Assembly (NCBI GenBank): GCA_013285405.1
Contig: CP053446.1
Location: 1,463,985 to 1,527,984 of the forward strand
Source of the DNA: Ignavibacteriota bacterium
GTDB taxonomy: Bacteria > Bacteroidota > Ignavibacteria > Ignavibacteriales > Ignavibacteriaceae
Length of the DNA: 64,000 nt
Direction of reading: 5' to 3'
Under the pieces are notes generated by a model, which worked only from the letters and a program-made list of their open reading frames with translations, did no database searches and was not told where the DNA came from. Below, in pieces: positions 7,238 to 27,397 of the stretch; position 1 is the stretch's first letter; every line of letters begins with the position of its first letter. The translations under genes and the position numbers were made by a program.

Positions 7238-7243
7238 GTTGTT

Positions 7244-9229
7244 TTATGGTCTGATTGAAACCGTATAGCTTGATAAACTTTCCTGCTGATTTTTATCTAA
7301 AGCAGTAACCGAATAAAAATATAACTCCCCGCTCTTCACACCACGATCATTCATCTGGAGTGGTTTCCCTTTCTTCACAGAACCAAGAAATTCTTTTTCT
7401 TCATCTCTCTGCTGGCGATATACTCTGTATTCAGTAATATCTTCTTCAATCACAGGGTCCCATTTTATGATCACGCCTTCTTTATCTCTTGAAACATACA
7501 AACCGACTGGTGATTTTACTTCAGCCAGCGGTTTAAGCAACTGAACTGGATTGCTCAATGAACTCTGTCCTCCAAACAGATCAATAGATTGAACAACATA
7601 TTCATAAGTTTTCCCGGTTTCAGTAGTCGTATCAATGAATAAATTATTATCGCTGGAAAGAGCAGAATCAATCAGCAGTTCATATTCAGAAGTTGTTTTC
7701 CCTGATGGGTCAATTGTTTTTCTGAAGATCAGATAATAACCAACTGAGCTTTCAATTTCAGTCATATCATCCCAAAGTATTCGGATAGAATTATCATCCT
7801 GCAGAAAAGCGACAAGTCCTGTTGGAGCCGGAGGAACAGTTTCAATTTCAGGTCTGATTGCTATCGTATCAGAAAAATTACTTAGAGCATGACTAGTACT
7901 CGATGACCTGATGCTGTAGAGATAAGTTAGTTTTCCTGAAAGTTCTTCACTCGTGTCTGAATAAACAGTAAATGGTTTTTCTTCATTAATCAGATTTGAA
8001 ATAAGCGCAAGCGAATCACTGAAGCCATTACTTCTGTAAACCCAAAATCCTTCAATAAAATCTTCAGTGTTTTGCCATTGGAGCTTAACTCCGTTTGACA
8101 AAGATTCTGCGTTAATATTTTCCGGTGGAACAGGCGGAATAATGCTTTGGTGAAATCCTCCGAATCTTGCTGATGCAGGAGAATTTTCTCCTAAAGGACC
8201 GGTAAGTTGAAAGTAATAATAATACCGTTTCATAGGCTCAGTCATAATATCGACGTAGTTATTTAATTTGGGAGAAAGCTCTGCGATCTGTACAAAACCA
8301 GAATCAAATATTTCACTTCTGAAAATTTTCACACTTACTACTGCATCGGGATTTGGAAGAAACCAGGACAATCTAAATGCGTCGGATGAATCATCCGAAA
8401 CTATCTGAACATTATGCGGCAGAGGAACATTTTGAAAATTATAAGCACCGATAAAAATTGTGTCAGAAGGAGTCCCTTCGTTTCCGAACAGATCTAACGG
8501 CAAAATAAAATAGTTATAAAAGTTATAGGCAGAAACGGAAGTATCTGTTAATATAAAAGATAAAGTATCATTGGTTATGTTGAAGCCATTTATGGTGCTG
8601 ATTTTCTGATAACCCCCTGCTCCATTATCTCTTCTGAATATTTTGAACGCAGATGGAGTAACCTCGCCGGAAACTCTGAACTCTAAAAATATTTTATTCA
8701 CTTCAGCGGAAGACGAATAAAAATTAATTCTATCATTTCTAAAAACCTGAGGAAAGGAAACCGAACCAGTGAATTCTTTCTGCTGAACATTCACAGCATT
8801 TGAAATGCGATATTGATATTTGGTATTCAAATTTGCTGATGCATCAAAATACATTGTGCCGAGGGCTATTTTGATAAAAGGAATATTTCCCCAGTAAGGA
8901 ATTGAATCAACACGATTTGTTCTCTGCCAGATATTCCAGATTTGTGATGCTTGTTTCTCATTGGGAAAATTAAAATCAGAGAACTGAGTACTTAATGCAG
9001 ATAACTTTCCTGCGAACTCAACTTCGGACAAAGGATTAATGGTTTTACCAAGTTCGATCCAGTTTTCAACCGATGTTTCTGTTCTTTCGATAATGTAGCT
9101 GCCGGATGAATTTGCAATATCAATAAAAATTCCGAAAGCACCTCCTATTGCTGCCGGATATTCCTGCTGACTGAAAAGATTACCATTGCAAAAAGCTAAC
9201 AGACAAATAAATAATTTTATTCTGATCAT
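7244..9229 (-). CDS. Multi-domain fibronectin type III surface protein
   Basis: About 661 residues with a signal peptide (MIRIKLFICLLAFCNGNLFSQ). Repeating FN3-like modules are spaced at about 90-100 residues: PHNVQIVSDDSSDAFRLSWF, PPENINAESLSNGVKLQWQN, PAPTGLVAFLQDDNSIRILW, SPVGLYVSRDKEGVIIKWDP, each followed by a YRxx or IFRKT strand. I chose the ATG at 9229 because GGAG ends seven bases before it. The ATG at 9235 lies one base after the same GGAG and is too close. Located between the 1971-residue protein and the barrel protein, with 7- and 13-base gaps, so translation is probably coupled. Role probably adhesion or assembly of the surface complex; no enzyme motif. Confidence 0.8.
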   Translation of the reverse strand: MIRIKLFICLLAFCNGNLFSQQEYPAAIGGAFGIFIDIANSSGSYIIERTETSVENWIELGKTINPLSEVEFAGKLSALSTQFSDFNFPNEKQASQIWNIWQRTNRVDSIPYWGNIPFIKIALGTMYFDASANLNTKYQYRISNAVNVQQKEFTGSVSFPQVFRNDRINFYSSSAEVNKIFLEFRVSGEVTPSAFKIFRRDNGAGGYQKISTINGFNITNDTLSFILTDTSVSAYNFYNYFILPLDLFGNEGTPSDTIFIGAYNFQNVPLPHNVQIVSDDSSDAFRLSWFLPNPDAVVSVKIFRSEIFDSGFVQIAELSPKLNNYVDIMTEPMKRYYYYFQLTGPLGENSPASARFGGFHQSIIPPVPPENINAESLSNGVKLQWQNTEDFIEGFWVYRSNGFSDSLALISNLINEEKPFTVYSDTSEELSGKLTYLYSIRSSSTSHALSNFSDTIAIRPEIETVPPAPTGLVAFLQDDNSIRILWDDMTEIESSVGYYLIFRKTIDPSGKTTSEYELLIDSALSSDNNLFIDTTTETGKTYEYVVQSIDLFGGQSSLSNPVQLLKPLAEVKSPVGLYVSRDKEGVIIKWDPVIEEDITEYRVYRQQRDEEKEFLGSVKKGKPLQMNDRGVKSGELYFYSVTALDKNQQESLSSYTVSIRP

Positions 9230-9242
9230 CTTCATTCTCCTT

Positions 9243-12200
9243 TTAATTCCCGCTGCAGGTTCCTGATTGAAAACCGAAGCTCATATTCCCGCCGCTGTCA
9301 AGATGCATAAGTGCGCCGAATGCAAAATCTTTACTAATATTTAAAATCTCATACGTACAGCCGCATCCATCAAGATCACAGCCATAGAATTTTTGGATTA
9401 TATGTCCCCCAATGCTAAAGCTTGTGCAACCATCGAGATTAAAAGTTCCGGCACCGGTTTGATAACTTCCTTCAACTCCCATTTCAAGGGTTGCTTCTCC
9501 GGTTAATTCAGTACAGGTTATTGACTGCATAGTTAAGAAAGCTTTTACAAATCCGAGTGCTCCAATTCCATAAGTTGAACCTCCCGCATCAAAACCTTTA
9601 TATACCTTAATATCTCCGCCGGCGTTAATTCCGAACTTTAGAACAAATACTCCAAGTTCAAGATCAATGTTTGGTATGAGTATAGGAATTGACATCGCAC
9701 CTGATAAAAGGAAGCCGCTTATATTATCTTGAAATGAATTTGGCAGACTTTTTTTGTAAGATGCTTTTGCAAATTTTTCTTTTACCGAGCTTGTCATAGA
9801 AGGATAATCTCCAAACAGCATTGCAGCATATCCAGGACCAACTCCCGGAACTGTCATCGTTCCGCCCCCAAGAAAATACCAGCCGGAGCCATCAATCAGC
9901 ATTTCAGCGAGACCAGTGAGATTAATACCACCCATATTCTGATTGATATCCATTGTCCCAATTAATCGGCTGTTTTCAAATTCATAAATCCAATTCATTC
10001 CACCGAATGGAGTTGGAACATCTTTAACAGAAATTTGCTGGTTGTCTGCTTTTATTTCACCATACACTGTAAACGCAAGTCGTTTCTTGTCATTGGTAAT
10101 TCCTTTTGTTCCTGTAAGATCACCTTCGAAGTGGAAATTATTCCATTTATTGGCTGCCACTTTCATTCCACCGGTAAGTTTATCGAGATAGGTTTTTGCC
10201 TCGCCGATTTTCAATGTCTGAAATGAATTCAAAGTAGTAAACGGTGTTGAAGGAGTTTCAACCAAAACAGAAGTTGAATCTGCAGTGTGGTATAACCAGC
10301 AATTAGTTTCGAATTTATTTTCTTCACCCACAACGCCGTGGGATCTGAATCCTGATTCATCAAGAACCTGTGAAAGCTGCTGCTCTTCAGTTACGCCGAA
10401 CTGCATATAAACACCATTGCCTGCCGCAGTATTTATATTTATTCCTTTCATCTTAAAAGCTAACTGACCGCCGCTTCCTTTGTAATATTGAACTGCAGTG
10501 CTTTGGGATACATTCGGTATGCTGAAACCAAGTCCCGGGATGTGCAGGTAATCATTATAAGCAAGCAATGCAGAAGTAAGATTAAGATTTCCAACTTTGT
10601 AAAGTTTGATTATCTGGTTTTGTTCGGGGGTAAGTGAGAAGAAATCACTTTTACTGTTGATAGTAAAATTACTCATCCGCATAAGTGCATTCGGTTCCAT
10701 TCCTGGCAAGCTTTTAAAATATGCTGCGTATGGATCGTTCAGATTTTTTTTGCTGATAGATATATACCAGTATTTTTTTGCATTATCATATCCAAAGTAA
10801 GGGTTGCCTGTGATTGTAATTGGAACAATTCCTGAAATAAGCATTGAATTAAAATTAAAATCTGCAAACTGAAATCCCGTTGGAGTAACATCAAGACTTT
10901 TTATCGGGATATCAGTTCCCGTTTTCAGAATTCCTTCGGTTATAATCAAATTGCTTTTGCTGAACACCCACTTAGATGCAGATAAAGACCAGTTATCAAG
11001 ATTAAAGTTAAAAGGTTTATCGCCTGCAATCGGTTCAATTCCAACCTGATGAAATACAACATCTCCGATCGGAAGTTTAATGTCTGATGGTGCTGCATTC
11101 TGTATGTTCGTATGAAGAGTTGTTCTAAGCTTAACATCATTATCTTTTAAAAACGAACTATCAGCATTTGCATCGGCTGTAAAAGTATTTATTTTGAAAT
11201 TGAGGTTACCACCATTTTCATTCGTCACATTGAATCCGTCCGTTAAATTTAATGGAACAGAAGCATCAGCAGTGATTGTCGGGATAAGTATTTTATTCTG
11301 TCCCGAAGAATTAGGATCTGCAAGATAAATTCCACTGTATCCGCTTAAACTGCCTTGTGTGTTAAATGATGAAGCATTAACAAATACCTTTCCCTTTAAT
11401 ACACCAGAACCTGTCCCTGCTTCATACATCCTGACACCACTGCTGACATCACCAAGCTTGCTTCCATATTTTTTATATACTTTCAGTTCCATTGAAGCTT
11501 CATCAAATATCAGCGGAGGATTAGAAAGTTCAGCGTACGGAATTCCTTTTGGATTTTTATTTGTTCCGGGTTGAATAGGTATATCTGTGAAGTTCAAAAT
11601 AGCAGTTGTTGAATCGAAAACTTCAAAGAGATTGTTTTTCTTAAACTTTTTTATTGTCCCTTTTATTTTTACACCACCATTCGGTTCTTCAGTTAAACCG
11701 GTGAGGTTAACAGGAAATCCGAGAAGCTTTGTAATATCCATCCCATTATAAACTGTGAGGAAAAGATCAACACCCGATTTACCAGCATCAGTAGTATAAA
11801 CATTTGCACTATCACCGATGATGGTTTCTTCATCAGAATGTTTTGAACCATAAACAATTACACCTTCACCGATTGGAACGTTTGGAAGAATGTACTCACC
11901 AATCTCATCAGTTTTGGTAGAGATATTCAAATCAGGATTACCGAAATCAATCCATACATCAGCGTCCTTAACTGGCTGGCTGCCAGCGACGTAAACTGAT
12001 CCGCTAATGTAAGTTGCTTTGTCGAGGGCTATTGTATAATACTCATCGTACTTGGACGGTTTATTAATCATCGTTCCAACTTTTTTCACATAGTATTTCC
12101 CGTTTGGAGCTTCCACAATAACCTTAAAGTTTGTTGCATCACTTGCAAATTCAAACTTTGCAATTCCACTTGAGTTCGTAGTTTTTTCAAGATAACTGCC

Positions 12201-15158
12201 AAGTAACTGAATTTTTATTTTTGCATTTTGTATTGGAGGCCATTGATAAACCTTTGGATAAGGATTTTCCGGTGTTGGTATCCATGGCTGGCTTTCTTTA
12301 ATCACAAAAACCATCCTGTGAAGTTTGTGATAAACTTTTAGCGTTCCGAGATCCTGTTTGTCTTTTGTGATGGTCACATAGCTTGTATCTATTATATAAC
12401 TTGCAGGATTATCAACCGGGGTAATTATCAGTGGCTGATGATTTAGCTTTGCGACAGGAAATTCAAATGAGCCGGGTGTTATTACGAACTGTTTAGTTTT
12501 TATATTATAGAAATAACCGGCAGGTTTAACTGTTTTTTCAGGACTATCACCAATTTTTATTTTTGCTGTTATTCCGTTCCCATATTCATCACTGATTTTT
12601 CCAAATACAATTGCCCCTGGGTCTAATGGTAAATCTCCCATTTGCTTTTTCTCACCCATCTGCAGAGCCCCATTCTGTGCTTGTCCCTGTATTTGCCATA
12701 TCTTTGACTTAAATCCATTTGCGGTCAAGAATAAACTTCTAACAGGACCATTAATCGGATAAGGTGAAGTGGGAGAGTACTCAACTGGTAAAAAAGCGAA
12801 TTTAAAATCACCGGTTGCATTTGTTGTATAAGTTCTCTCTATGATTGGCAAAGGAAGGTTACCAATAAATTTCAACTTCATCAGGTTTACTTTAACATTA
12901 GTTAATCCTGCACCAGTTTGATCAGACCTCACAACTCTGCCTTTAACCAGCGGCAGTAAAGGTGTCGCATAAAAATTTTTGTTTACAGTTGGATAAACAT
13001 ATTGTGAATTGTATGTCGCGTTGTCTATGGCTGATAAAACAATTCCACCTTTTTCAATCTTTTCAACAAACTCAACTAATCCTGCTTTCTTTTCAGTGTA
13101 AAGATTTATATCGGCACCATAACCATAACTGAATGTAAATTTCTCGAGCATAGTTTTGTAATTGTGCGGCGCGTTTTCAGTACTTTTGGCATAAATGTAA
13201 TACCGATCTGAAGGGCTGATATTAACAATCAGTCGCTTGAAAATTATTTTTCCATTCTGATTTGTAATTCCCTTTGCAACCACTTCATAGCCGAACATTG
13301 TTTCTCCCGGTGACTGTTCCGGGAGCCCCTCATTATCCGGTAAATAGTAAGCCCGGAATTTTCTTAAAAGATACACATCCATTTGTTCGAGCGGCAGATG
13401 AGAATATTGTTCTGAGAATTTTTCTTCCTTCGATGGTTTAATCGTTGCCTCGAGTTGATAGCTTCGTATATACGAAGTAAGGCTGCCGATATTTTTCGTT
13501 TCCCATGGTTGAATTATTATATCTTCATCCGGACTGGTGTAATAAGGATGGTCAACAATTATTCTTGCAACTCTATAAACATCTCCAATGTATGTATAAC
13601 AATTTTCTCCAGAGGTACAATTTGATAATGTATGATTTGCTTTCACCAGAATCATACTATCCGGACAGATATAATTGAATTGAAAATTTCCGTTCTGATC
13701 GGTTGTAGCTGTAGCAAGCAATTTATCGTTATCAGTAGGATTGCCAGGGATATTACCGTCTTTAAGAATTAATGTGCCTTGGGGAGCTTCATCCTCATAT
13801 TGAGTTCCTGTATGGCTTGTATATTTCAAAATATATTTTATAACAAGTTTAATGTTTGTATTTGGCAGCGCCCATTTTTCATTATCCTGCAAATCAGCAT
13901 ATTTATAATTAAGCTGTCCGGAAACTTTACACCATGCAGGAAGAACAAATGTACCTCCTTGTACATATCCACCAATAATCTGAGAAATTCCGGATATGTA
14001 TTTGAACTTCCAGACTGCGCTTGATTTCAATTCGTTGTTTGTATTTGCATCAATTACTTTAACCTGCCAGGCATATTCTTTTCCATTCAAAAAATTAATC
14101 GGAGTAACAGGTGTTGTAGTGTTCGAAGGCGGATTAACAACAGGAATGAATATAGGATAATTATTCATCGCTGTCTCGGGAGATTGTCCCTGCAATATCT
14201 CACAAACTTTAACCAAATATTTTATTACCTCTCCTTGCTTGGGTGTATATGACCATTTAAATACGGGAGTCTTTGTGTTTAAATCAGAATTGTTTTCGGG
14301 CTCTGTAAGTAATGGAAAATCAAGTGTGTTTGTTATTATAACTATTGAAGGCATTTTTTTTACAAATGTGAATATTTCACTCTTACCTTCATTCTGCGCG
14401 GGAGGAAATCCAAACTGATCAAGTGCCTGAACCTGCCAGACATAAGTTTTATTAAAGTCAAGCGGCAACGCATCTATCGGATAAGTGAAGGTATTTAAAC
14501 TAATCTGATTATTTAAATAATGAGGATAATTTGCGCTTAATGCTTGAGCAGGAGTTTGCCCTTGCAGAAGTTCAACAATCTTTAAAGAATAGTTAATAAT
14601 ATATGCCGGCGGAACAATTACAGGTGTCCATTGTAACGTCGGATAATTAATTTCGCCGGGCAGAGAATCCTGGTTTGCAGGATAAATAAGATGTGGAGGT
14701 TCAGGATAAATTATTGTAAAGTCTCCGCAAACATTTGCAGCAAGTATTAAACCGTTCATATCTTCAATAGTCATACACGCAGTATATTTGCCCTCGGGAA
14801 GTCTCCCGGTTCTTCTTACCTGAGTTTTCAACACAGAATTTGGAAAAGTCGCTTCATCGAGATCGAAAAGAGTTGTATTGTCCAAAACAGTAACCGGCGC
14901 CTCAGAAATTACTAATGGGTTTGTTACACAGGTAAATATATTTCCTTGTGATTGATGTGTTACAACTGATTTAATACTGACGGTATTGTTTCTTCCTGAA
15001 TTGTTAAATATGGTCATTGAACCAATTGCCGCAGGATTTGTTTCCCAATCGCTGATATATGGTGAAGGAAATGGATTGAGATTTAAAGTCGCATTCCAGC
15101 CCTGTGAGTAAATTAATGAAGATGAAAAAATAATCAGCAGTGGTAATAAACTTTTCAT
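9243..15158 (-). CDS. Giant (1971-residue) secreted surface protein
   Basis: It has a signal peptide (MKSLLPLLIIFSSSLIYSQ). The N-terminal ~390 residues contain two copies of a module with the pattern P.L.W.P ... Y.(L/V)K(I/V).E.LQGQ(T/S)P..A. The middle (~400-1100) has several carboxypeptidase-regulatory-like beta sandwiches (KGRVVRSDQTGAGLTNVKV, FGKISDEYGNGITAKIKIG, ISGSVYVAGSQPVKDADVWI). A long beta-rich section follows, and the last ~100 residues are Gly- and Cys-rich (CDLDGCGCTYEILN). No type IX sorting domain is visible, so export or anchoring differs from the other secreted proteins here. The layout resembles giant Bacteroidota surface proteins such as TANFOR-domain proteins, but I cannot confirm that family by eye. 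Second gene of a four-gene operon. Confidence 0.75.
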   Translation of the reverse strand: MKSLLPLLIIFSSSLIYSQGWNATLNLNPFPSPYISDWETNPAAIGSMTIFNNSGRNNTVSIKSVVTHQSQGNIFTCVTNPLVISEAPVTVLDNTTLFDLDEATFPNSVLKTQVRRTGRLPEGKYTACMTIEDMNGLILAANVCGDFTIIYPEPPHLIYPANQDSLPGEINYPTLQWTPVIVPPAYIINYSLKIVELLQGQTPAQALSANYPHYLNNQISLNTFTYPIDALPLDFNKTYVWQVQALDQFGFPPAQNEGKSEIFTFVKKMPSIVIITNTLDFPLLTEPENNSDLNTKTPVFKWSYTPKQGEVIKYLVKVCEILQGQSPETAMNNYPIFIPVVNPPSNTTTPVTPINFLNGKEYAWQVKVIDANTNNELKSSAVWKFKYISGISQIIGGYVQGGTFVLPAWCKVSGQLNYKYADLQDNEKWALPNTNIKLVIKYILKYTSHTGTQYEDEAPQGTLILKDGNIPGNPTDNDKLLATATTDQNGNFQFNYICPDSMILVKANHTLSNCTSGENCYTYIGDVYRVARIIVDHPYYTSPDEDIIIQPWETKNIGSLTSYIRSYQLEATIKPSKEEKFSEQYSHLPLEQMDVYLLRKFRAYYLPDNEGLPEQSPGETMFGYEVVAKGITNQNGKIIFKRLIVNISPSDRYYIYAKSTENAPHNYKTMLEKFTFSYGYGADINLYTEKKAGLVEFVEKIEKGGIVLSAIDNATYNSQYVYPTVNKNFYATPLLPLVKGRVVRSDQTGAGLTNVKVNLMKLKFIGNLPLPIIERTYTTNATGDFKFAFLPVEYSPTSPYPINGPVRSLFLTANGFKSKIWQIQGQAQNGALQMGEKKQMGDLPLDPGAIVFGKISDEYGNGITAKIKIGDSPEKTVKPAGYFYNIKTKQFVITPGSFEFPVAKLNHQPLIITPVDNPASYIIDTSYVTITKDKQDLGTLKVYHKLHRMVFVIKESQPWIPTPENPYPKVYQWPPIQNAKIKIQLLGSYLEKTTNSSGIAKFEFASDATNFKVIVEAPNGKYYVKKVGTMINKPSKYDEYYTIALDKATYISGSVYVAGSQPVKDADVWIDFGNPDLNISTKTDEIGEYILPNVPIGEGVIVYGSKHSDEETIIGDSANVYTTDAGKSGVDLFLTVYNGMDITKLLGFPVNLTGLTEEPNGGVKIKGTIKKFKKNNLFEVFDSTTAILNFTDIPIQPGTNKNPKGIPYAELSNPPLIFDEASMELKVYKKYGSKLGDVSSGVRMYEAGTGSGVLKGKVFVNASSFNTQGSLSGYSGIYLADPNSSGQNKILIPTITADASVPLNLTDGFNVTNENGGNLNFKINTFTADANADSSFLKDNDVKLRTTLHTNIQNAAPSDIKLPIGDVVFHQVGIEPIAGDKPFNFNLDNWSLSASKWVFSKSNLIITEGILKTGTDIPIKSLDVTPTGFQFADFNFNSMLISGIVPITITGNPYFGYDNAKKYWYISISKKNLNDPYAAYFKSLPGMEPNALMRMSNFTINSKSDFFSLTPEQNQIIKLYKVGNLNLTSALLAYNDYLHIPGLGFSIPNVSQSTAVQYYKGSGGQLAFKMKGININTAAGNGVYMQFGVTEEQQLSQVLDESGFRSHGVVGEENKFETNCWLYHTADSTSVLVETPSTPFTTLNSFQTLKIGEAKTYLDKLTGGMKVAANKWNNFHFEGDLTGTKGITNDKKRLAFTVYGEIKADNQQISVKDVPTPFGGMNWIYEFENSRLIGTMDINQNMGGINLTGLAEMLIDGSGWYFLGGGTMTVPGVGPGYAAMLFGDYPSMTSSVKEKFAKASYKKSLPNSFQDNISGFLLSGAMSIPILIPNIDLELGVFVLKFGINAGGDIKVYKGFDAGGSTYGIGALGFVKAFLTMQSITCTELTGEATLEMGVEGSYQTGAGTFNLDGCTSFSIGGHIIQKFYGCDLDGCGCTYEILNISKDFAFGALMHLDSGGNMSFGFQSGTCSGN

Positions 15159-15172
15159 AATCTTTCTTTCGA

Positions 15173-16198
15173 TTAATGATACTGGAGAATCCGGAGACCT
15201 GAGTTATAATCTGCAACAAATATTTTATCATTATTTACAAAAACGGAAAATGCAAGATCGGGAGTTGCAGAAGAACCAACTTGTTTTGGGTTTGCCGGAT
15301 CACTTATGTTATATACGAGAATTCCATCTGTATTTGCTGCTACAAAAAGCAGATCGCCTTTTAAGAAAAGTTTTCTTCCGGCGGCAGGTAATTCGTGTCT
15401 CTTGATTTGTACCGGTTTAGTCTTGTCTGTAATATCAACTATGTGAAGATTTTGAATTGAAGCTATGAAGCAATAATTCCCACTGACTACAACATCATCA
15501 AATTCAGAATAATCCCAGTAATTTTCTTCTTTAAATCTTCCTTTTAACTGAGGCGAAGAAATATTGCTCACGTCAATTACAAACAATCCGGAATCCTGAT
15601 CCAGCACGTAAGCGAAGTTCCCCTCAACATAAACAGCATCTGATTTATTTCCGGAAAGATCAAGATAGCTTTGAACAAACGGTGCAGATTTATTAGAAAC
15701 GTTGAAGATACAAAAATCTTTATCCTTGCATGCTGCATACGAGTAGTTGTTAATCACAACAGCATTCGAGATGACAGGGGCAAATGAAAAATCCTGACCA
15801 ACCTGCAAAGGAACGGCTGGATTACTGATGTCTAAAATTATTAATCCGCTTCCGCTTGTGGCGAGATATGCGTAATTACCATCAACATAACATTTTTGAA
15901 CAAATGATTTGTAAAAGACACTTTTCTCGGTCGGGTTTTTCGGATCGCTGATGTCGATAATTCTTAATCCCCATTGATCAAGAGCAACATTTGTAAAGTT
16001 GTCAGCAATGTAAGCAAAATTGTTCTGAACAAATACATCTTCAAAGTATGGTGTCAGATTAGAATATGTGAAAGAACCAATTTCACTTATTGATAATTGA
16101 TTATCGTCATTTGGATTATTAGGATCTTCTTCACTGCAACTGATGATTACAAGAGATATAAAAGTTAAAACCGCTAAAAATTTGTTATTGAATTTCAT
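15173..16198 (-). CDS. LVIVD-repeat beta-propeller lipoprotein
   Basis: About 341 residues from the ATG at 16198, which has the purine-rich GAAGAGAAAAGAG directly upstream. A longer frame from a TTG at 16213 is less likely. Lipobox LVIISC gives a lipid-anchored Cys. Eight or so LVIVD-type repeats follow (WGLRIIDISDPKNPT, SGLIILDISNPAVP, SGLFVIDVSNISSPQ, LHIVDITDKTKP, GILVYNISDPANPK), predicting a seven-bladed propeller at the cell surface. First gene of the operon that continues with the 1971-residue protein 14 bases downstream. Family members are surface proteins of unknown biochemical role. Confidence 0.85.
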   Translation of the reverse strand: MKFNNKFLAVLTFISLVIISCSEEDPNNPNDDNQLSISEIGSFTYSNLTPYFEDVFVQNNFAYIADNFTNVALDQWGLRIIDISDPKNPTEKSVFYKSFVQKCYVDGNYAYLATSGSGLIILDISNPAVPLQVGQDFSFAPVISNAVVINNYSYAACKDKDFCIFNVSNKSAPFVQSYLDLSGNKSDAVYVEGNFAYVLDQDSGLFVIDVSNISSPQLKGRFKEENYWDYSEFDDVVVSGNYCFIASIQNLHIVDITDKTKPVQIKRHELPAAGRKLFLKGDLLFVAANTDGILVYNISDPANPKQVGSSATPDLAFSVFVNNDKIFVADYNSGLRILQYH

Positions 16199-16380
16199 CT
16201 CTTTTCTCTTCAAATATTTTTATAATAATTAGCCAAACGATAATCTATTTGTTCTGTCATTTGGGAATGAAAAAATTCAGTACAAAGAGCAATCATAAAT
16301 TTGATCAAATAATTTTTCATACCAGCCTCTTTTAATTAATAATCTTTATAAAAATATTATTTTGAATTATGAATTTCTGA

Positions 16381-16974
16381 TTAATGAAAAATTTTCATCA
16401 CTTCTTCTACAACTTTTCTTGATACATTCAATGTGTTATCATCAAATCCCAAATCCTTTCCATAACTGGATATATGAATCTGGTAGTAATCCTTATAGAC
16501 CACGATGAGATTATAAATTCCTCCAAGATCATAAAAGTATGCTGCATCACCAAGATCTGTAACAGTTTTGCATGTCTTTAAAGCATTTTCCTGAAGCTCA
16601 TCAATTTCGGCATCGCCGGTCTTATCACCACCAATAATTTTTTCTTTTTCTTTTGGAAAGCTTGTGTTACCAAATCTTCGCACCAAAACAGCAATATTTT
16701 TACCCGGAGAATAATATCCGCATTGCGATACGTACTTACCCATGCTTTCATCAGTTTGATGAACTGTACTTATTTCTTCGTTGAAAACAATTCCTGTTAT
16801 TGAACTCATCTTACTCATTGGAAGAAGTTCACACATAGTCTTTTGAGGGACTTCAAAAGCAGAGTCCGATTTATTTTGATTTGATTCTGGTTTATCTTCG
16901 GCACAACCGTAGAATAAAAACGGTAAAAGGGAAAGAGTTAAAAGCTTAATAAAGTATTTCAATGCAGACTCCAT
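16381..16974 (-). CDS. Putative lipoprotein of unknown function
   Basis: 197 residues from the ATG at 16974 (MESALKYFIKLL). A TTG at 17025 would add 17 residues before the signal peptide and overlap the palindrome upstream, so I reject it. The lipobox-like end is LFYGC, then a Ser/Asn-rich linker. The conserved core (CELLPMSKMSSITG, VSQCGYYSPG, FYDLGGIYNLIVVYKDYYQIHIS) holds two cysteines that could pair. I do not recognise the family. It follows the response regulator and has the same palindrome upstream as that gene, so it may be a regulon member or a periplasmic partner of the kinase. Confidence 0.6.
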   Translation of the reverse strand: MESALKYFIKLLTLSLLPFLFYGCAEDKPESNQNKSDSAFEVPQKTMCELLPMSKMSSITGIVFNEEISTVHQTDESMGKYVSQCGYYSPGKNIAVLVRRFGNTSFPKEKEKIIGGDKTGDAEIDELQENALKTCKTVTDLGDAAYFYDLGGIYNLIVVYKDYYQIHISSYGKDLGFDDNTLNVSRKVVEEVMKIFH

Positions 16975-17021
16975 TTTGGAATAAAATATTGGATGTAAAC
17001 TAAGGCGATACGTCGGAGGTA

Positions 17022-17041
17022 TCAATCACATAAAGATGTGA
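17022..17041. promoter_or_regulatory. Palindromic candidate operator upstream of the lipoprotein gene
   Basis: The core is TCACAT-AAAG-ATGTGA, an inverted repeat with 6-bp arms, 48-67 bases upstream of the ATG at 16974 and 16 bases after the regulator stop. The whole 20-mer matches 17755-17774 at 19 of 20 positions. Confidence 0.55.
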
Positions 17042-17057
17042 ATTTTAATAGGAGTGA

Positions 17058-17699
17058 TTAAAAGATTTTATCTTTCAGTGCTTTGGCAACCGCTCCGGAT
17101 TTTGAACTTACGTGAAGTTTTTGGTAAATGTTTTTGATGTGTGAACGAACTGTATCAAGACTGATGAAAAGTGTGTCTGCAATTTTTTTATAACTTAAAC
17201 CATTGACAAGCTCCTGCAGGATTTCTTTTTCCCGTCGTGTAAGATTATACTCAATTGTTTTTTTATCCGGTTCATTAAAGAAACTTAAAACTCGTTTAGC
17301 AATACTCGGTGTCATTGGCGCACCACCTGCATTAACATCTTTTATTGCATCAAGAATTTGTTCAAGGGGAGTTCTTTTAAGAATGTATCCGGAAGCACCA
17401 GCACGCAGCGAATCAAATATTTGTGCGTCGTCTTCATAAACAGTCAGCATAACGATATTAGCTGCCGGATAGATGCTTTTGATTTTAGAAACACATTCGA
17501 TTCCCGACATACCAGGCATTGAAATATCCATAATAAATACGTCGGGAAGAATATCATCAAGTTTACTTAGTAAAGTCTGACAATCTGCAAAAGCACCTTT
17601 TAATACGAATTCATCTGCCGATTCAATCAGTGCGGAAATACCTTTCCGTATCTGTTCATCGTCTTCAACTATTACAACTGATATTTTTTTATCATTCAT
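17058..17699 (-). CDS. NarL/FixJ-type response regulator
   Basis: 213 residues. The receiver domain (about 5-120) has the acidic pair E12/D13/D14, the phospho-acceptor D58 (VFIMDISMPGMSG), T86 and K109 (LKRTP). A LuxR-type HTH follows (about 147-210: LTRREKEILQELVNGLSYKKIADTLF in two halves, then SLDTVRSHIKNIYQKL). DNA-binding output makes it a transcription factor. It lies 79 bases downstream of the HisKA_3 sensor kinase gene, its evident partner. The gap before it and the gap after it each contain the same palindrome, so autoregulation is likely (inference). Confidence 0.95.
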   Translation of the reverse strand: MNDKKISVVIVEDDEQIRKGISALIESADEFVLKGAFADCQTLLSKLDDILPDVFIMDISMPGMSGIECVSKIKSIYPAANIVMLTVYEDDAQIFDSLRAGASGYILKRTPLEQILDAIKDVNAGGAPMTPSIAKRVLSFFNEPDKKTIEYNLTRREKEILQELVNGLSYKKIADTLFISLDTVRSHIKNIYQKLHVSSKSGAVAKALKDKIF

Positions 17700-17754
17700 T
17701 ATAGATTTAGAAAATTATTAACTGTATCTAAAGTCACTAATAATTTAAAAATAG

Positions 17755-17774
17755 TCAATCACATATAGATGTGA
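17755..17774. promoter_or_regulatory. Palindromic candidate operator upstream of the response regulator
   Basis: ATCACAT-ATAG-ATGTGAT, a perfect inverted repeat with 7-bp arms (17758-17775), lies 56-75 bases upstream of the regulator ATG and a few bases after the kinase stop codon. The near-identical copy at 17022-17041 is at a similar distance from the next gene. Inverted heptamers are the type of site bound by NarL-family regulators. An RNA hairpin acting as an attenuator is the alternative. Confidence 0.55.
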
Positions 17775-17778
17775 TTTA

Positions 17779-20766
17779 TCAAATTGGTATTTCAATTATT
17801 ACTTTCGTTCCCTTGCCGGGCGATGAGTTTAGCTGAAGTTTAGCATTAATTTCATTTGACCTGTGTTTAATATTTTTCAATCCATTCCCCTCAACTTGTT
17901 TGATTATGTCAAACCCAACACCATTATCCTCAATTGATAGCAAAATTTTCCGAGTGGGTTTTTCATAAAATCTCAAGTCAATTCTTACAGTTGAAGCATT
18001 TGAATACTTAGCAGAATTTGTAACCACCTCTTTAAATATGGAAAGCAGATTTCTTCTGACATCCATCGGCAAAATTATTTTTTCGTTTCCTGCTTTAAGA
18101 TTAAACTCCAGGTTTATTCCTTTTGATTCGAGAATTTTTACTGAATAATCTTTTAACTTAAGCAGTGCATCTTCAAATTTGTCATTGCCTGGATTTACAG
18201 CCCATACAATGTCACTCATTTTATCTATTAAATCACGTGATGTATTTTCAATTCTTTCTAACAATTCAACCGCCCGGATAGAACCGGATTTGGATTCTCG
18301 TTTAATGAGCTGTGTAAATATTGCAATGCTTGATAAGCTGGTACCAATCTCATCGTGTAAATCGCTGGAGATTTTTGTCCTTAATATTTCGACTTTAAGC
18401 GCCTGCCGGATTTTATATTGATAGATAATATAATTGACAAGTGAAACAACCAGTACAAAAACAATTATTGACAGTGCGATAAACCACCAGCGCTGCCAAA
18501 ATGGAGCCAGAATTATAAAGTTGAAAACTGCAGGATTAGAACTTTTAAGACCTTCCTTATTTATCGCATAAACTTTGAAGGAATATTTTCCGGGAGGAAG
18601 ATGTGTATAGCTGAGATAATTTCTTTGTGTGTTGAACGTCCAGTTTTTATCAAATCCTTCTAATATATAATCATACCTGACATTAGATTCATCTTTGAAA
18701 CTTGTTCCTGCAAACTCAAAGAATAACGTATTGTTTGAATATGTTAATTCGATGATTTCATTTTTCGAAATAGTCTGTTTGCCCAGATCTTCAAATCGAA
18801 ATTCTCCAGTTGAATCGGAGTTCGGGTTGTCGGGAAGCTCTCCATCCAATAATCTGATCTGCGTAAAATGGATATTAGGTTTTGAATCGAATGCATAGTT
18901 GTTTCCGGTATTATAGCAAAAAATCTGACTCCAGGAACAAAACCATAAATCACTTTCAACTTTTGTAGAGAATTTTATTTCACCCGAAGAGATACCATCG
19001 CTCGCATCAAATTTTAACCAATGTTTACCGTCAAATTTATTTACTCCATTGGCTGTAGAGAACCAATAGTTATTAAAATCATCTTCCAGAATTGAGAATA
19101 CCCAGTTACTACTTAACCCATCTTTAATTGAAAGCTGCTGAAAATTTCCGTTGTCACAAATAAAAACTCCGCCATAACGTGTTCCCACCCACAACTTTTT
19201 CTTGCTGTCTATATACAGTCCTCTGATATGAAGATCATTCAGCCCGTTCTTTTCAGTAAAGCGAAAGATGGAATCAGCTTTAATCCTGAACAATCCGTCA
19301 GCCCACGAACCAACCCAAACAGAATTATCCTCACCTACTATCAACCATCTGATGCTTGTATTAGAAAGAATATTTTTACTTTTTGAGTCAGAGAAATTCC
19401 ATTTTTCTTCCGACTTGTTACTAAAGTTGAAGATCTGTCCATTCCTACAATAAGCCAATCCGGACTGAGAGCCTATCCAAACTATTCCGTTTAAATCCTG
19501 CTTAATATTGTAAATGAAATTGTGGGGCAAGCCGTCTTTTTTGGTAAAATGCAAAACGCCGGATTTATTTTTTACAAATACACCTCTGTCTGTAGCAAAC
19601 CACAGGTCATTATTAAATCTGCCGATTCTATTATATGATGCTTTCCCGATTCCTACAGTAAAAGTTGAAGGTGCAAGAGAGAAATCTTTGATTTCGTATA
19701 AGTCTAAATTCGAACCAATTAATAGCTTATCGTCAATCTGAGTTACATCAGACGTAAAATATGTTTGTGGCTTTTGATTTTTAATGAACTTCAGATTTGT
19801 GTTCGTAAGTTTGCTCATTCCGTCAAGCGATCCTATCCAAAGATTATTTTCATTATCATAGAATAAGCTGATTATACTTGTCTCGGTTAATCCGTTATTA
19901 TGATTAATTGTTTCCAGCCTGTTGCCATTAAATAAGAAAATACTTCCGAGCATACCAATTCTTAAATTACCATATCTATCCTCACAATAGGAAATTGAAG
20001 GCACTGTGATTTCAGGATGAGATTTAGAAAAATCGGTTATTTTATTTTCTTTAAGGAAGTAAAGTTTATTTATAGTAGTGAACCAGAGTCTTTTATCTTT
20101 ATCAAAATAAACATAAAACACCGGTTCTTTTTTTTGTGTGGAATCAGGATAAACGAATTCGTATTGATCATTGTGTTTTCGTACGAGACCAATATCAGTA
20201 GCGTAATAACTTTCACCATTGTCAGTAAATGCTGCACGTAATATGTTAAGTTTACCAAGTTTGCCAAATTTATCCTGATGTCTGACTTGGGTAAAAACAC
20301 TATCTTTAAAAATCCATTCTGAAATTCCTTCATCTGTAAAAATCCAGATATTTCCTTTTGCGTCTCTGGTAATTTGACTAACGTATGGACTTATCAGGTA
20401 TTTTTTATTGTTTAAAATCGTTTTAATAATATCTTTTTTAAAGGGAGTTTTTTCAAAAACAGCAATTCCGCTTCCCAGCGTACCGACCAGCATAACACCA
20501 GGAGCTACTTCAAGAAAACTTGTTATTACAGGAACTGGCAATCCATCATCTATTCCATAATTATAAAAAGAAAATCCGTCATATATGCTTACACCTTCTG
20601 CCGTTCCAAACCACATTCTTCCGAAAGAATCTTGTGAAATAACTCGTATTGTTCCCTGAACAAGTCCATCTGACGTGGTGTATTTTTTGAAATAGTAAAC
20701 TTGTGCTGTTAAGTTTGATAGCAGAGATATGAAAATAAAACCGGAAGTCAGTATTTTTTTGAACAT
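17779..20766 (-). CDS. Sensor histidine kinase with periplasmic propeller (HisKA_3)
   Basis: 995 residues. Signal peptide (MFKKILTSGFIFISLLSNLTAQ), then about 650 residues of regulator-propeller repeats (RMWFGTAEGVSIYDG, NLWIGSLDGMSKLTN, IVWIGSQSGLAY, SVWVGSWADGLFRI, KLWVGTRYGGVFI) and a Y_Y_Y domain (~690-770, YDYILEGFDKNW). One membrane helix follows (~778-800, WWFIALSIIVFVLVVSLVNY), then a HisKA_3 dimerisation helix with phospho-acceptor His804 (SSDLHDEIGTSLSSI) and a HATPase domain (VVTNSAKYSNAS, IEDNGVGFD, GNGLKNI). A periplasmic ligand would be sensed and the phosphate passed to the NarL-type regulator downstream. No Shine-Dalgarno at the start. Confidence 0.95.
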   Translation of the reverse strand: MFKKILTSGFIFISLLSNLTAQVYYFKKYTTSDGLVQGTIRVISQDSFGRMWFGTAEGVSIYDGFSFYNYGIDDGLPVPVITSFLEVAPGVMLVGTLGSGIAVFEKTPFKKDIIKTILNNKKYLISPYVSQITRDAKGNIWIFTDEGISEWIFKDSVFTQVRHQDKFGKLGKLNILRAAFTDNGESYYATDIGLVRKHNDQYEFVYPDSTQKKEPVFYVYFDKDKRLWFTTINKLYFLKENKITDFSKSHPEITVPSISYCEDRYGNLRIGMLGSIFLFNGNRLETINHNNGLTETSIISLFYDNENNLWIGSLDGMSKLTNTNLKFIKNQKPQTYFTSDVTQIDDKLLIGSNLDLYEIKDFSLAPSTFTVGIGKASYNRIGRFNNDLWFATDRGVFVKNKSGVLHFTKKDGLPHNFIYNIKQDLNGIVWIGSQSGLAYCRNGQIFNFSNKSEEKWNFSDSKSKNILSNTSIRWLIVGEDNSVWVGSWADGLFRIKADSIFRFTEKNGLNDLHIRGLYIDSKKKLWVGTRYGGVFICDNGNFQQLSIKDGLSSNWVFSILEDDFNNYWFSTANGVNKFDGKHWLKFDASDGISSGEIKFSTKVESDLWFCSWSQIFCYNTGNNYAFDSKPNIHFTQIRLLDGELPDNPNSDSTGEFRFEDLGKQTISKNEIIELTYSNNTLFFEFAGTSFKDESNVRYDYILEGFDKNWTFNTQRNYLSYTHLPPGKYSFKVYAINKEGLKSSNPAVFNFIILAPFWQRWWFIALSIIVFVLVVSLVNYIIYQYKIRQALKVEILRTKISSDLHDEIGTSLSSIAIFTQLIKRESKSGSIRAVELLERIENTSRDLIDKMSDIVWAVNPGNDKFEDALLKLKDYSVKILESKGINLEFNLKAGNEKIILPMDVRRNLLSIFKEVVTNSAKYSNASTVRIDLRFYEKPTRKILLSIEDNGVGFDIIKQVEGNGLKNIKHRSNEINAKLQLNSSPGKGTKVIIEIPI

Positions 20767-20930
20767 AATAATTAATATTAACTAAGAATTCTATCTATCA
20801 AAAGTCTCTTCAAATAAAAATAAAATCAGGAATAATAATTTCTATGAAGATTAGATTTTTATTCAATCACTTTATCGTTTTCAATATCTGATCTTTCAAT
20901 TTATAAAGTCAAAGAAAACAAATAAATAAA

Positions 20931-22916
20931 ATGTCAGACAACACTCAATTTTATAATAGTATTTCATTCCAACAGGAAAAACCCGAAAATAATATTTTCA
21001 GAGCCTCTGAAGAATTTAAAGAGGAAGCTCATTTTTCTTCTCACAATCAATATAAAAATGTTTATGAATTTTCTGTTGCCGATAAAGAAAGATTCTGGAG
21101 CGGCGAAGCAAGGGAATTATTCTGGTTTAACTTGTGGAAAGAAGTAAAACAAGGCAAAGCTTTTAATTCAAAATGGTTTGTCGGCGGAAAAACTAATCTT
21201 AGCTATAATTGTCTTGACAGACACTTACCAACCGAAAAAAGAAATAAAGCCGCGGTAATCTGGGAAAGTGAAACAGGCGAAAGCCAAATACTCACTTATC
21301 AATTGCTTTATACCAAGGTATGCAAATTTGCAAATGTTCTGAAGAAATACGGTGTGCAAAATGGTGATAATGTAATTATTTATATGGGGGTAATTCCGGA
21401 ATCGATAATTGCAATGCTAGCTTGTTCAAGAATTGGAGCAATTCATTCTGTTGTGAACACTGACCTCAGCAGTATTGCGCTTTCCGAAAGGATAAATCAT
21501 CTCTCCTGCAGGTTATTGATTACACAAGATTATGTTTTCAAAAAAGGTAATCAGCTTGACATAAGAAGCAAAGTGGATTCCGCACTTAAGAACACAAACT
21601 TAATAGAAAAAGTTATTTTGTTCAGAAGGTTAAAAGTACAGGAAACAAAACCGATTCAGGAAAACGAAATAAACTGGCAAAACGAAATTGATAAAATATC
21701 CGATGAATGTGAAGCAGTCCCGCTGCAATCTCAACACCCGATGTTCAGCTTGTTCACAAACGGACCAAAAGGAGATCTTGTAAACATTCTTCATTCAACC
21801 GGCGGTTATATGGTTCAAACTTACCTGACTGCTAAATGGATTTTTGATCTCAAAGGGAATGATATTCTATGGACAGCTTCCGATATCAGCAAAATATCAG
21901 CACACAGTTACAGCATTTATGGTCCTCTTCTAAATGGAATAACAACATTTCTTTATGAAGGAGTTCCTATACATCCTGAGCCAGATAAATACTGGCAGTT
22001 AATTTCAAAATATAAAATAAATGTATTTTACGTGAACCCAACAACCGTGCGGGCATTACTTAAACTTGGTGATGAATGGGTATTCAAACACGATTTGTCA
22101 AGTCTGAGATTAATTGGACTAAAAGGAGAAACTATACAAAGCAATACGTGGCTTTGGTTATATAAGAACATCGGAAATCAAAAATGTCCGGTTGTGGATA
22201 CATGGCTTCAAACAGAAACAGGTTCTATAATAATTTCACCATTGCCCGGCGCATCTGAATTTCGTCCCGGCTATACTGGTTATCCTTTTCCCGGAGTGGA
22301 GGTGGATATCGTGGATTTAAATGGAAAATCTGTCGCTGAAGGTGAAGCTGGTTATTTTATTATTAAAGATAGTTGCCCATCAATGTTTACAACGAAAAAA
22401 GATAACAAAGAAGAAACAAGTCTGAATTGCTGGAAGCAATTTAAAGGGAGTTATTTTACTGGTGATGCAGCAGTGAGGGAGAATGAAAATTTCATAAAGA
22501 TTCTCGGAAGAGTTGATGATGTTATAAAAGCTGCTGGTAACCGAGTCGGAGGCTCTGAAATTGAAAAAGTGCTTCTGACACATCCATCAGTTTCAGAAGC
22601 AGCGGTTGTGAAAAGATCTGACGAAATTACTGAAAACGCGATTGTTGTATTTGTAACTCTCAATAATCTGGAAAGCACACCTCTTCTGAAAGAAGAACTA
22701 AGAAATTATATCTCTGATAAAATCGGAACGATTGCGAAACCAGACGAATTAATTTTTCTGAAGGAATTTCCCAGAATCGAAAATGGGGAAATAGATCGGA
22801 GCTTGCTCAGGGAAAAAGCCAAAGAGGGATTAAAGGAATTAACAGGAAAAGAAAGCGAATACCAGAAAATTCTTGAAAAATTGAGAGAGGATTATCAGAG
22901 AATTCAATTCGAATAA
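20931..22916 (+). CDS. Acetyl-CoA synthetase-like protein lacking key catalytic residues
   Basis: 661 residues aligning by eye along the whole length of acetyl-CoA synthetase (AMP-forming): N-terminal ACAS_N (YKNVYEFSVADKERFW), GGY after HST (290-292), WLQTETG (425-431), PLPGASEFRPG, YFTGD (508-512) and GRVDDVIKAAGNRVG (526-540). The ATP P-loop is degenerate: the family's YTSGSTGKPKG is FTNGPKGDLVN at 275-285. The C-terminal catalytic lysine (family SGKIMRR) is Glu620 (NGEIDRS). DVGWVTGHSY is DISKISAHSY. All frames are intact, so this is not simple decay. I infer loss of adenylation or of acetate activation, leaving CoA/acyl binding, regulation or a changed chemistry. Divergent from the sensor kinase across a 164-bp gap. 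Confidence 0.85.
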   Translation: MSDNTQFYNSISFQQEKPENNIFRASEEFKEEAHFSSHNQYKNVYEFSVADKERFWSGEARELFWFNLWKEVKQGKAFNSKWFVGGKTNLSYNCLDRHLPTEKRNKAAVIWESETGESQILTYQLLYTKVCKFANVLKKYGVQNGDNVIIYMGVIPESIIAMLACSRIGAIHSVVNTDLSSIALSERINHLSCRLLITQDYVFKKGNQLDIRSKVDSALKNTNLIEKVILFRRLKVQETKPIQENEINWQNEIDKISDECEAVPLQSQHPMFSLFTNGPKGDLVNILHSTGGYMVQTYLTAKWIFDLKGNDILWTASDISKISAHSYSIYGPLLNGITTFLYEGVPIHPEPDKYWQLISKYKINVFYVNPTTVRALLKLGDEWVFKHDLSSLRLIGLKGETIQSNTWLWLYKNIGNQKCPVVDTWLQTETGSIIISPLPGASEFRPGYTGYPFPGVEVDIVDLNGKSVAEGEAGYFIIKDSCPSMFTTKKDNKEETSLNCWKQFKGSYFTGDAAVRENENFIKILGRVDDVIKAAGNRVGGSEIEKVLLTHPSVSEAAVVKRSDEITENAIVVFVTLNNLESTPLLKEELRNYISDKIGTIAKPDELIFLKEFPRIENGEIDRSLLREKAKEGLKELTGKESEYQKILEKLREDYQRIQFE

Positions 22917-24250: not shown

Positions 24251-27200
24251 ATGAAATCTAATCTACTCAAATCTTCAATGCTGGGAATTATAATACCACT
24301 CATCATAAGCTCAATCTCCTTTTCTCAATATAAGGACAGGCTTAGCCAGGTTAGAGACCTTGTAAATTCTAATGAGTTAATAATGATATGGAGCCAGGGA
24401 GAAAATTCAACGAATCAGTTTTGTTATCAGAGAATTTATGATCTGGATTTAACACATCCAGGAGGAGTTGATTCTACTTTAAGAAAGAAATCACTTCAAA
24501 TAGATTCATCAATTACCGGCAGAAAAACGATTGCTGTTGCTACCGGAAACTTTCTAAATAAAAATTGTAAGAATATTGTGGCCGCTTGGGAATCAGGCGA
24601 CAATACAGTCCGGATTTCTGTTCCCGAAATTGACTCTGCAACTTTATCTTGGTCAAACACTAATGAATTAACGTTGAGCGGACTTGCATCTTATCAAAAA
24701 AATAAAATACACGTTGAGACAGGAAATTTTTTCGGGAATTTGCAGGATGAATTTATTGTTGCATTTCAGGGTGCGGATACAACAATACATCTTCAGCTAT
24801 GTTCTTTTAACCCCGATGATCTCGACCCTAATCTGCAAGGAAGTATTAATGACGAGACAACTTTTACAGCAAGTTTATTTCTAAATAATTTTGATATAGT
24901 TTCCGGAGATTTTAACAGCGATGGTTACGATGACATTGCTTTAATGTTTTTAAAACCAGTTGGTTCAAACAATTGGGCACTATGGATTACGATTTATACA
25001 ATAGATGATAATGGCAATTTTGTTAGAAAATCTTCACAGGAAGTATTTCAAGAACCTGCTTATAATGTAACCGAGGTAAACATTGACGGCATAACTGGTT
25101 CATTTGATAGTGATTCAGAAGAGGAAGCAGCATTCGGATTTTCTTTCTTCCAGGGTGAAGAGCCGGGAAACGACACATACGTATATCTTATTGACATAAG
25201 TGATAATCTGGATGTTCTGACAATCGATGATACAAAAAGAGTTGCACGAAATGTAGTTGGTCCTAACGAAATGCCGCAGATGAATGTTGGTGCAGGAGAT
25301 TTTGATAAGAATAATCACGATGAACTGGTTTTAATGTCTGGCTCAACATTCTATGTATATGCAATTGATAGTGATCTCAATACTCAATACAAATCGCAGC
25401 AAAATGTGTCAACGGAAGGATCGAATTTTTATTCCGATGCCTTTCTTGCTGTTGATGATATGGATCTTGATCGCAGTTCAGAAATTGTAGTTGTAAAAAG
25501 TTTTATCGATAACGAACCAGGCGGACTTCAGCATTTTGAGATGCACGTATTTAGTCTTGACACAACACTCACCACATACACACTAAAAGCCAGAAGATTA
25601 TTCGAAGAGCCGATTTCATCAAATTTTAATGAAAGAAAATATGCAATTGCTTTAGGAGATTTTGATGGCGATAGAGTAAGATTGGGCGATCCTGTTCATT
25701 ATCGAAGAAGCGGAGTAATGCAACCAACTGTTGTGTTATATACTCCACCAATTCATTATGACATTTTAAATGGAACTACTCATGATCTTAGTGATTGTTA
25801 TCCTGATCAGAATTGTGGTTTTACATCAACATATATTCAATCAACTACTACGGATACAACTATTACAACAGAAGTTCATGAAGACTGGGGCGGCGATGCA
25901 AGTATAACGTCATCACAACTTATCCTCAAAGAAAAAGTAAAAGCAACTTATGGAGATAAATTCAGTGCTAAAGAATCTTCAGGCACATCTTATACAATAA
26001 CAACCGGAAGAGTGGCCGCAGGTGACGACTGGATTTATTCAAATGTCTATGATATAGATTTTTATGAATACCCGGTGTATGATGGTGTTGATCCAGCACC
26101 CATTGGATATTTTCTTGTCACAATCCCGCAAAACGCACGACCATTATGGATAGAACTTAGGGATGATGATTTACTTGGCAGTCAATTCAAACCTGATCAC
26201 GAAACAGGTAATGTACTTTCATACCGATCATCAAATACATTCGATACATCACGGGTAATAGTAGATTTTCCGGAACAAACAATCGGCTCAACAGGTAACA
26301 GTTTTGTTTCATTATTAATTTCCTCATTCCGTGAAAATAGTATTGATACAAGTTGGGATGCAGGTTTGGAAGTTGGTGCAACTTTAGATTTGTCAGGAGA
26401 TTTTGGTGGTTTCGAAGCAGGAGTTGAAGTCGAAGTAAATGGTCACTACAATTATGGAGAAATGTACACACAAACAGTTCGGGTTCAGCAATCACTTGAA
26501 GTAAGAGGAGACTTGGGCCACCTTGATCCACAATACGGAACCAGCGGTACTTATTATGTTAAACCGTACGCTTATTGGACTTCCTATGGTGCGCTTGCAT
26601 TGGATTATAAAGTTACTCAACTTCCTTCCGGAGGAAATTCATTCTGGCAAAACAATTACGGTGGTAAAACAGATCTCGCGTTTAGTCTGCCGTGGCGATA
26701 CGATCCGGAGAAAGGTTATCCACTTCCCGGAAATGATACAACATACCGATACCGATCAAGAGATATTTTTCTTTCAAAAATAAATCCCAAGGGTGGCGAT
26801 TCAGTTTATATAATGGCTAAGGTAAGAAATTTTGGATTACAGAATATAACATCACCATTCACTTTAAAATTTTATGATGGCATTCCAAACAATGGCGGCA
26901 ACTTGATAGCCGAGACTACGGTTGACACAACAATTGCAGCACGCGGTTACAGAAATGTTTTTGTACCATGGTTAATTCCGTTAAATCAGCCGATGAATAA
27001 TTTAAGAATTTATGTTGTCATTGATCAGGAAAATGCAGTAACAAATGAAGTTCATGAAAATAATAATCTTGGATGGGCTCCAGCAATCGGCTATGGTTCA
27101 ATAGTGAGCGTTGAAGTTGAACAGACAATTCCTGAAGATTATTTTCTTTATCAATCATACCCAAACCCATTCAATCCATCAACAACAATTAAGTACTCAA

Positions 27201-27397
27201 TTCCGAATGGCGATAATGTTAGTTTAAAAATATTTGACATTCTTGGAAGAGAAGTTGAAGTACTGGTTGATGAATATAAAAACGCAGGAACGTATTCAGT
27301 TGAATTTAATGCAAGCAGGTTTGCGAGTGGAGTTTATTTTTATCAATTGCAATCAGGAAGATTCATTGAAACGAAGAAGATGATTTTACTTCGATAA
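24251..27397 (+). CDS. Large type IX-secreted protein with FG-GAP/VCBS-like repeats
   Basis: 1048 residues, start supported by GAGGTGA nearby. Signal sequence (LGIIIPLIISSISFSQ). At least four FG-GAP/VCBS-like calcium-type motifs: VSGDFNSDGYDDIALMF, VGAGDFDKNNHDELVLM, AVDDMDLDRSSEIVVVKS, ALGDFDGDRVRLGD. They suggest an integrin-like propeller over residues ~90-480. A Thr/Ser-rich beta region follows, then a CARDB-like module near 850-930 (VYIMAKVRNFGLQNITSPF) and a C-terminal type IX sorting domain (SYPNPFNPSTTIKYS, FDILGREVEVLVD, SGVYFYQL, KKMILLR). Extracellular; ligand unknown. Monocistronic, followed by a hairpin at 27476. Confidence 0.9.
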   Translation: MKSNLLKSSMLGIIIPLIISSISFSQYKDRLSQVRDLVNSNELIMIWSQGENSTNQFCYQRIYDLDLTHPGGVDSTLRKKSLQIDSSITGRKTIAVATGNFLNKNCKNIVAAWESGDNTVRISVPEIDSATLSWSNTNELTLSGLASYQKNKIHVETGNFFGNLQDEFIVAFQGADTTIHLQLCSFNPDDLDPNLQGSINDETTFTASLFLNNFDIVSGDFNSDGYDDIALMFLKPVGSNNWALWITIYTIDDNGNFVRKSSQEVFQEPAYNVTEVNIDGITGSFDSDSEEEAAFGFSFFQGEEPGNDTYVYLIDISDNLDVLTIDDTKRVARNVVGPNEMPQMNVGAGDFDKNNHDELVLMSGSTFYVYAIDSDLNTQYKSQQNVSTEGSNFYSDAFLAVDDMDLDRSSEIVVVKSFIDNEPGGLQHFEMHVFSLDTTLTTYTLKARRLFEEPISSNFNERKYAIALGDFDGDRVRLGDPVHYRRSGVMQPTVVLYTPPIHYDILNGTTHDLSDCYPDQNCGFTSTYIQSTTTDTTITTEVHEDWGGDASITSSQLILKEKVKATYGDKFSAKESSGTSYTITTGRVAAGDDWIYSNVYDIDFYEYPVYDGVDPAPIGYFLVTIPQNARPLWIELRDDDLLGSQFKPDHETGNVLSYRSSNTFDTSRVIVDFPEQTIGSTGNSFVSLLISSFRENSIDTSWDAGLEVGATLDLSGDFGGFEAGVEVEVNGHYNYGEMYTQTVRVQQSLEVRGDLGHLDPQYGTSGTYYVKPYAYWTSYGALALDYKVTQLPSGGNSFWQNNYGGKTDLAFSLPWRYDPEKGYPLPGNDTTYRYRSRDIFLSKINPKGGDSVYIMAKVRNFGLQNITSPFTLKFYDGIPNNGGNLIAETTVDTTIAARGYRNVFVPWLIPLNQPMNNLRIYVVIDQENAVTNEVHENNNLGWAPAIGYGSIVSVEVEQTIPEDYFLYQSYPNPFNPSTTIKYSIPNGDNVSLKIFDILGREVEVLVDEYKNAGTYSVEFNASRFASGVYFYQLQSGRFIETKKMILLR

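Follow-up and report, generated by a model that had tools for sequence, protein, structure and literature searches.

The gene at positions 20931–22916 of the forward strand, within the 64,000-nucleotide stretch of DNA that was analysed (the window), encodes a protein derived from AMP-forming acetyl-CoA synthetase (Acs) that belongs to a clade in which the consensus of the ATP-binding loop (A3, or P-loop) has been lost throughout. Judged from its sequence, the clade protein is probably a binding or regulatory protein and not a working enzyme.

The reading frame is uninterrupted and codes for 661 amino acids that retain the domain order of Acs across their full length, with ACAS_N (PF16177), AMP-binding (PF00501) and AMP-binding_C (PF13193) domains. 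Almost the entire chain aligns with Salmonella Acs, at 38% identity. The score against the AcsA equivalog model TIGR02188 is 665.4 bits and falls below the cut-off of 724.95 bits; with 688.7 bits the protein clears the threshold of 657 set by NF001208, the looser NCBIfam subfamily model for acetate-CoA ligases. A complete Acs was predicted by AlphaFold2 (pLDDT 87, pTM 0.89), the model being uninformative about ligands and of low confidence in the first 16 residues and at residues 534–536, which follow the hinge. Structural comparison of this model returned the Acs fold (Z 55.8 with 1.5 Å rmsd over 609 aligned residues), and the top match, tied with other Salmonella Acs entries, was a crystal structure of Salmonella Acs with cAMP and CoA (5jrh_A). 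Both the fold and the hinge are predicted to be intact. No match to Rfam was found within the window.

In the alignment to Salmonella enterica Acs, the A3 sequence YTSGSTGKPKG is replaced by FTNGPKGDLVN (residues 275–285; 21753–21785, forward strand), SVGEPIN by LKGETIQ, GWVTGHSY by SKISAHSY, TWWQTETG by TWLQTETG and Lys609 by Glu620, with YFTGD and GRVDDV retained. Signature motif I, TSG(S/T)TGxPKG, is thus absent from the window protein (TNGPKGDLVN), and it is canonical in none of the eleven clade members. The substitutions recur across the clade: S265 has become Asn in 10 of 11, S/T267 Pro in 10, T268 Lys in 9, K270 Asp in 9, K272 Val, Ile or Leu in all 11 and G273 Asn or Lys in all 11. The resulting loop is mostly uniform, N-G-P-K-G-D-(L/P)-(V/I), and the replaced positions (265, 267, 268, 270, 272 and 273) are on average about as conserved within the clade as the rest of the protein. 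All 101 other Acs-family rows sampled, which include a few duplicates, have a TSGxxGxxK(G/A) loop, and S265, K272, W414, D500, R515 and K609 are invariant among them. The sequence-only reading of this DNA had described a full-length Acs homologue with a degenerate A3 loop and Glu620, a description borne out by the reading frame, by the Salmonella alignment and by the comparison rows, none of which departs from S265, K272, W414 or K609, so that chance is a very unlikely source of the differences. The P-loop coordinates the ATP phosphates, and mutation of its conserved residues severely lowers activity (PMC6122825).

Two active-site changes beyond those described earlier were identified. Lys398 (22122–22124, forward strand) stands in place of Val386, which in Salmonella Acs lines the acetate pocket; this position is Lys in seven orthologues, Ile in two, Arg in one and Met in one, and Val or Gly in the 101 other sequences. 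Leu426 (22206–22208, forward strand) replaces Trp414, a position occupied by Leu, Ile or Met in all eleven orthologues and by Trp in all 101 others. Trp414 is the residue that restricts Acs to acetate, and its substitution widens the acyl range (PMC10455477). The WLQTETG segment had been listed among the kept motifs, which is correct for the remainder of the segment but not for its Leu, the very residue that takes the place of the Trp. The FGG sequence of the CoA site (163–165) is also replaced in the clade. Glu620 (GAA, 22788–22790, forward strand), at the position of the A10 lysine Lys609, had been put forward as a defining change and does not hold up as one: the residue is Lys in eight of the eleven orthologues, Arg in one, and Glu only in the window protein and one neighbour. 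Even between the closest relatives the residue varies, and Glu620 was rejected as the key feature. Orthologues with canonical A3 and A10 residues had been named as grounds for abandoning the idea, and here the two motifs part: A10 is canonical in most orthologues, A3 in none. Loss of R584, a CoA residue, was considered and set aside as not diagnostic, canonical relatives in the present sample lacking it too; the reference chain for residue numbering, 2p20, is itself the R584A variant.

Much of the adenylate-binding side is preserved. W413, Q415, E417, D500, R515, D517, D518 and R526 are invariant in all eleven clade members. Asp529 (22515–22517, forward strand) is the counterpart of Asp517, the hinge of Acs. 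Motif III (A7, Y-x-T-G-D) is present as YFTGD (22452–22466, forward strand) and carries the ribose-binding Asp512, equivalent to Asp500. Published work places Asp500, Trp413, Gln415 and Arg515 at the ribose, which they contact or position (PMC3438747), and Arg526 in contact with the phosphate of the acyl-adenylate (PMC10455477). Residues of the ATP/Mg site that persist in the clade are T264 (10 of 11), G266, G269 and Glu417. In a small alignment of canonical sequences and the clade, 175 columns are invariant among the canonical sequences, of which 87 are kept in all clade members and 24 are lost in all.

A family search of 80 genomes returned orthologues, 58–76% identical, in all six genomes of the genus to which the window belongs (g1) and in five of six genomes of a second genus (g3); in the sixth g3 genome, which is 80% complete, only the other, canonical type of Acs was detected. 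The total is therefore eleven, in two neighbouring genera of one Ignavibacteria family, each with a full-length open frame and each with the non-canonical loop, so that the search for orthologues sharing the A3 substitutions, proposed in the earlier reading, was successful. Named records among them comprise one Ignavibacteriaceae MAG and two 'Bacteroidetes' MAGs. Profile searches across the order and the phylum (a phylum sample of 395 genomes) returned no members outside the two genera, and the scores drop from 1242 to 891 bits at the edge of the clade, a gap that is partly by construction as clade members trained the profile. A wider contig search gave at least three loci above 45% identity among the matches listed, and no relatives were found in the viral contigs searched.

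Maximum-likelihood analysis recovers the eleven sequences as monophyletic (support 100/100), with a stem about 1.0 substitution per site long. They branch from inside the native Acs lineage that occurs across the phylum, next to a group of the L028–L032 type (98/91). The nearest relatives in the tree, L018–L026 and L027–L032, are sister Acs of the same gene lineage with 44–50% identity; they differ from the clade in that all have TSGTxGK/R(P/A)KG loops and the A10 Lys. L027–L032 (genera g2, g13 and g27), with a near-intact P-loop, are changed only at acyl-pocket residues (V386G, V310S/A and T412G/S/A) and are probably ligases that act on a different acid. The clade genomes' canonical Acs (L002 and relatives; in the window genome at G000:C1:118296–120089) comes from another lineage, clearly set apart in the tree (100/100). 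Eight of the eleven genomes carry it, among them every one with a completeness of at least 90%, and it was not detected in three incomplete ones (G036, G038 and G007; 81–89% complete). As far as surveyed, no genome of the family holds a fully canonical native type together with the second lineage.

The clade protein evolves about three times faster than the canonical Acs by dN in the same genome pairs, yet is clearly constrained. For the pair G035 and G037, dN/dS of the clade gene is 0.073–0.082 at a dS of about 1.1, and the same pair gives 0.02 for the canonical Acs and 0.07 for a neighbouring MscS-type gene; for other pairs dS is mostly saturated and dN/dS is indicative only. With dN/dS near 0.07–0.08 and all frames open, the gene is functional and not decaying, and the earlier remark that the changes are unlike random decay is upheld by this purifying selection. 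It is very improbable that the gene is a pseudogene in decay or an artefact of sequencing: the faster evolution would fit (76% identity for the clade protein versus 93% for the canonical paralogue in one genome pair), but eleven separate assemblies carry full open frames with the same kind of new loop, and dN/dS is far below 1. Random decay and a frameshift artefact were both rejected on these grounds.

The protein keeps its contacts to adenosine and ribose, to Mg and to the acyl phosphate; the P-loop, which grips the ATP phosphates, is replaced, as are the acetate pocket and FGG. With the P-loop and acetate pocket gone and the AMP side and hinge still present, a pseudo-Acs that binds a nucleotide is the simplest reading. 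The native Acs gene may have become redundant when acetate activation passed to a second Acs lineage, and would then have been repurposed in the ancestor of the two genera; we infer this displacement and repurposing from the lineage distribution, which it fits. Formation of acetyl-adenylate would have been lost, and the protein would bind an adenosine nucleotide, whether AMP, an acyl-adenylate or a cyclic nucleotide, the hinge converting binding into a domain movement that is read by a putative partner. On the sequence evidence, we give an even chance to a nucleotide-responsive pseudo-Acs that acts on such a partner through domain movement. Two attributes of a pseudoenzyme are present: an enzyme homologue lacks conserved catalytic residues, a lack common to its orthologues, and the protein is under selection with eleven intact frames. 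The fuller account, in which a displaced Acs became a conserved adenylate-sensing pseudoenzyme of two genera with graded relatives still extant (pocket changed, P-loop lost, A10 Lys lost), is offered tentatively, as somewhat less probable than otherwise.

Several observations count against a pseudo-Acs. The A10 Lys, which is needed for adenylation, is kept in eight of eleven members, and T264, G266, G269 and Glu417 persist; a pure non-catalyst need not keep any of these. W414L and V386K, moreover, also look like a substrate change. The clade could instead comprise active acid-CoA (or acid-AMP) ligases in which a pocket widened by W414L/I/M and made positive by V386K/R takes a larger or dicarboxylic acid, and in which the N-G-P-K-G-D loop holds ATP via Lys280 and the two retained glycines. 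Such a ligase would account for the retained K609, T264, G266, G269, E417 and R526, and is in keeping with the wider acyl range obtained on substitution of W414 (PMC10455477). As the pocket of the closest canonical-loop relatives, L027–L032, is altered with the P-loop near-intact, the pocket change may have come first. However, K272 is lost in all eleven members, and the equivalent P-loop lysine is 97% conserved in a superfamily survey; activity drops severely when conserved residues of the loop are mutated (PMC6122825). The hydroxyl residues at 265, 267 and 268 are mostly gone, the window protein has Glu for the A10 Lys, and position 386 is Lys or Arg in eight members but Ile or Met in three, so that no single new substrate chemistry is conserved. 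An altered ligase, for which the persistence of Lys609 in most orthologues speaks, is the main rival reading, although from the sequences we consider it rather unlikely.

Less probable still is that the clade gene is functional and the window copy, which has diverged more than the rest of its subclade, is beginning an additional loss confined to its own lineage. The window copy carries W309K, G312A and K609E and sits on the longest tip, 0.25 against 0.09–0.14 for its four closest relatives, its upstream element deviates from the shared form, and it lies about 15.5 kb from its MscS neighbour. Its frame is nevertheless intact, and NG86 dN/dS with G035 and G037 is still 0.05–0.07, at saturated dS.

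Compared with known AMP-forming Acs/AcsA (S. enterica 1PG4/5JRH, Chloroflexota 8RPL), the window protein is alike in whole-length homology (Z ~55), domains, motif III, hinge and adenylate contacts, and differs in the A3 consensus, W414, V386 and FGG; the window copy has lost the A10 Lys as well. Medium-chain acyl-CoA synthetases (Macs) have also lost the Trp at 414 and widened the pocket, but they keep the P-loop and have Gly at that position, whereas the window sequence is of Acs type overall. The combination of a kept fold, a lost catalytic motif and retained selection resembles pseudoenzymes generally, such as pseudokinases without ATP-binding motifs (PMC7586955). No Acs-type pseudoenzyme is described in the limited collection of literature searched. 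Annotation pipelines will label the gene an acetate-CoA ligase. Metabolic models of these bacteria, which are largely uncultured, would add a second acetate-activating enzyme, probably wrongly. The clade and its canonical-loop sisters together lay out a natural succession in which an enzyme of central metabolism can lose its ATP chemistry and keep its fold.

The neighbourhood had been characterized as signalling-rich, which proves to be a local feature. An MscS-type mechanosensitive channel gene (4098–5162, reverse strand; PF00924/PF21082) is the divergently oriented neighbour of the orthologues, adjoining the clade gene or sitting one gene away in all eight other genomes in which the contig reaches; the intervening gene in some is thioesterase-like or a gamma-glutamyltransferase. 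Only in the window genome are the two conserved neighbours separated by a block of about 15.5 kb (5264–20766, reverse strand), which encodes, by its domains, secreted-type proteins, a LuxR-type response regulator and a two-component propeller histidine kinase. No homologues of this block were found at orthologous loci, so that a conserved tie to two-component genes was rejected. The channel was likewise rejected as a dedicated partner; its link is positional only, since MscS orthologues exist in many family members, including other genera, without this Acs.

Aligned upstream regions of the orthologues share a promoter-like element, TTGNNTTT-N12-ATCTAAT (for example at L162:14727, L160:8725, L163:2562 and L165:4746). 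Across about 0.35 Mb of loci from the family its strict form occurs eight times, in each case just upstream of this gene. The window copy (20867–20892, forward strand) has diverged to TCACTTTA ... ATCTGAT. In some copies of the element an inverted repeat, ATTGC...GCAAT, is present in imperfect form. In G036 the orthologue is followed downstream by three tandem paralogues (L164:2860–12616) of a 1048-aa FG-GAP/T9SS protein that is encoded in the window at 24251–27397. A HisH-like glutamine amidotransferase homologue that has lost the catalytic Cys (L038:11992–12579, reverse strand; L185–L189 and L191) is a neighbour of the pseudo-Acs in four genomes and is encoded at other places in further ones. 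It has GIGTGM, GIGLGM or IDSGM for GICLGM, some copies also lacking the triad His/Glu, and these homologues are possibly a second pseudoenzyme family in these bacteria.
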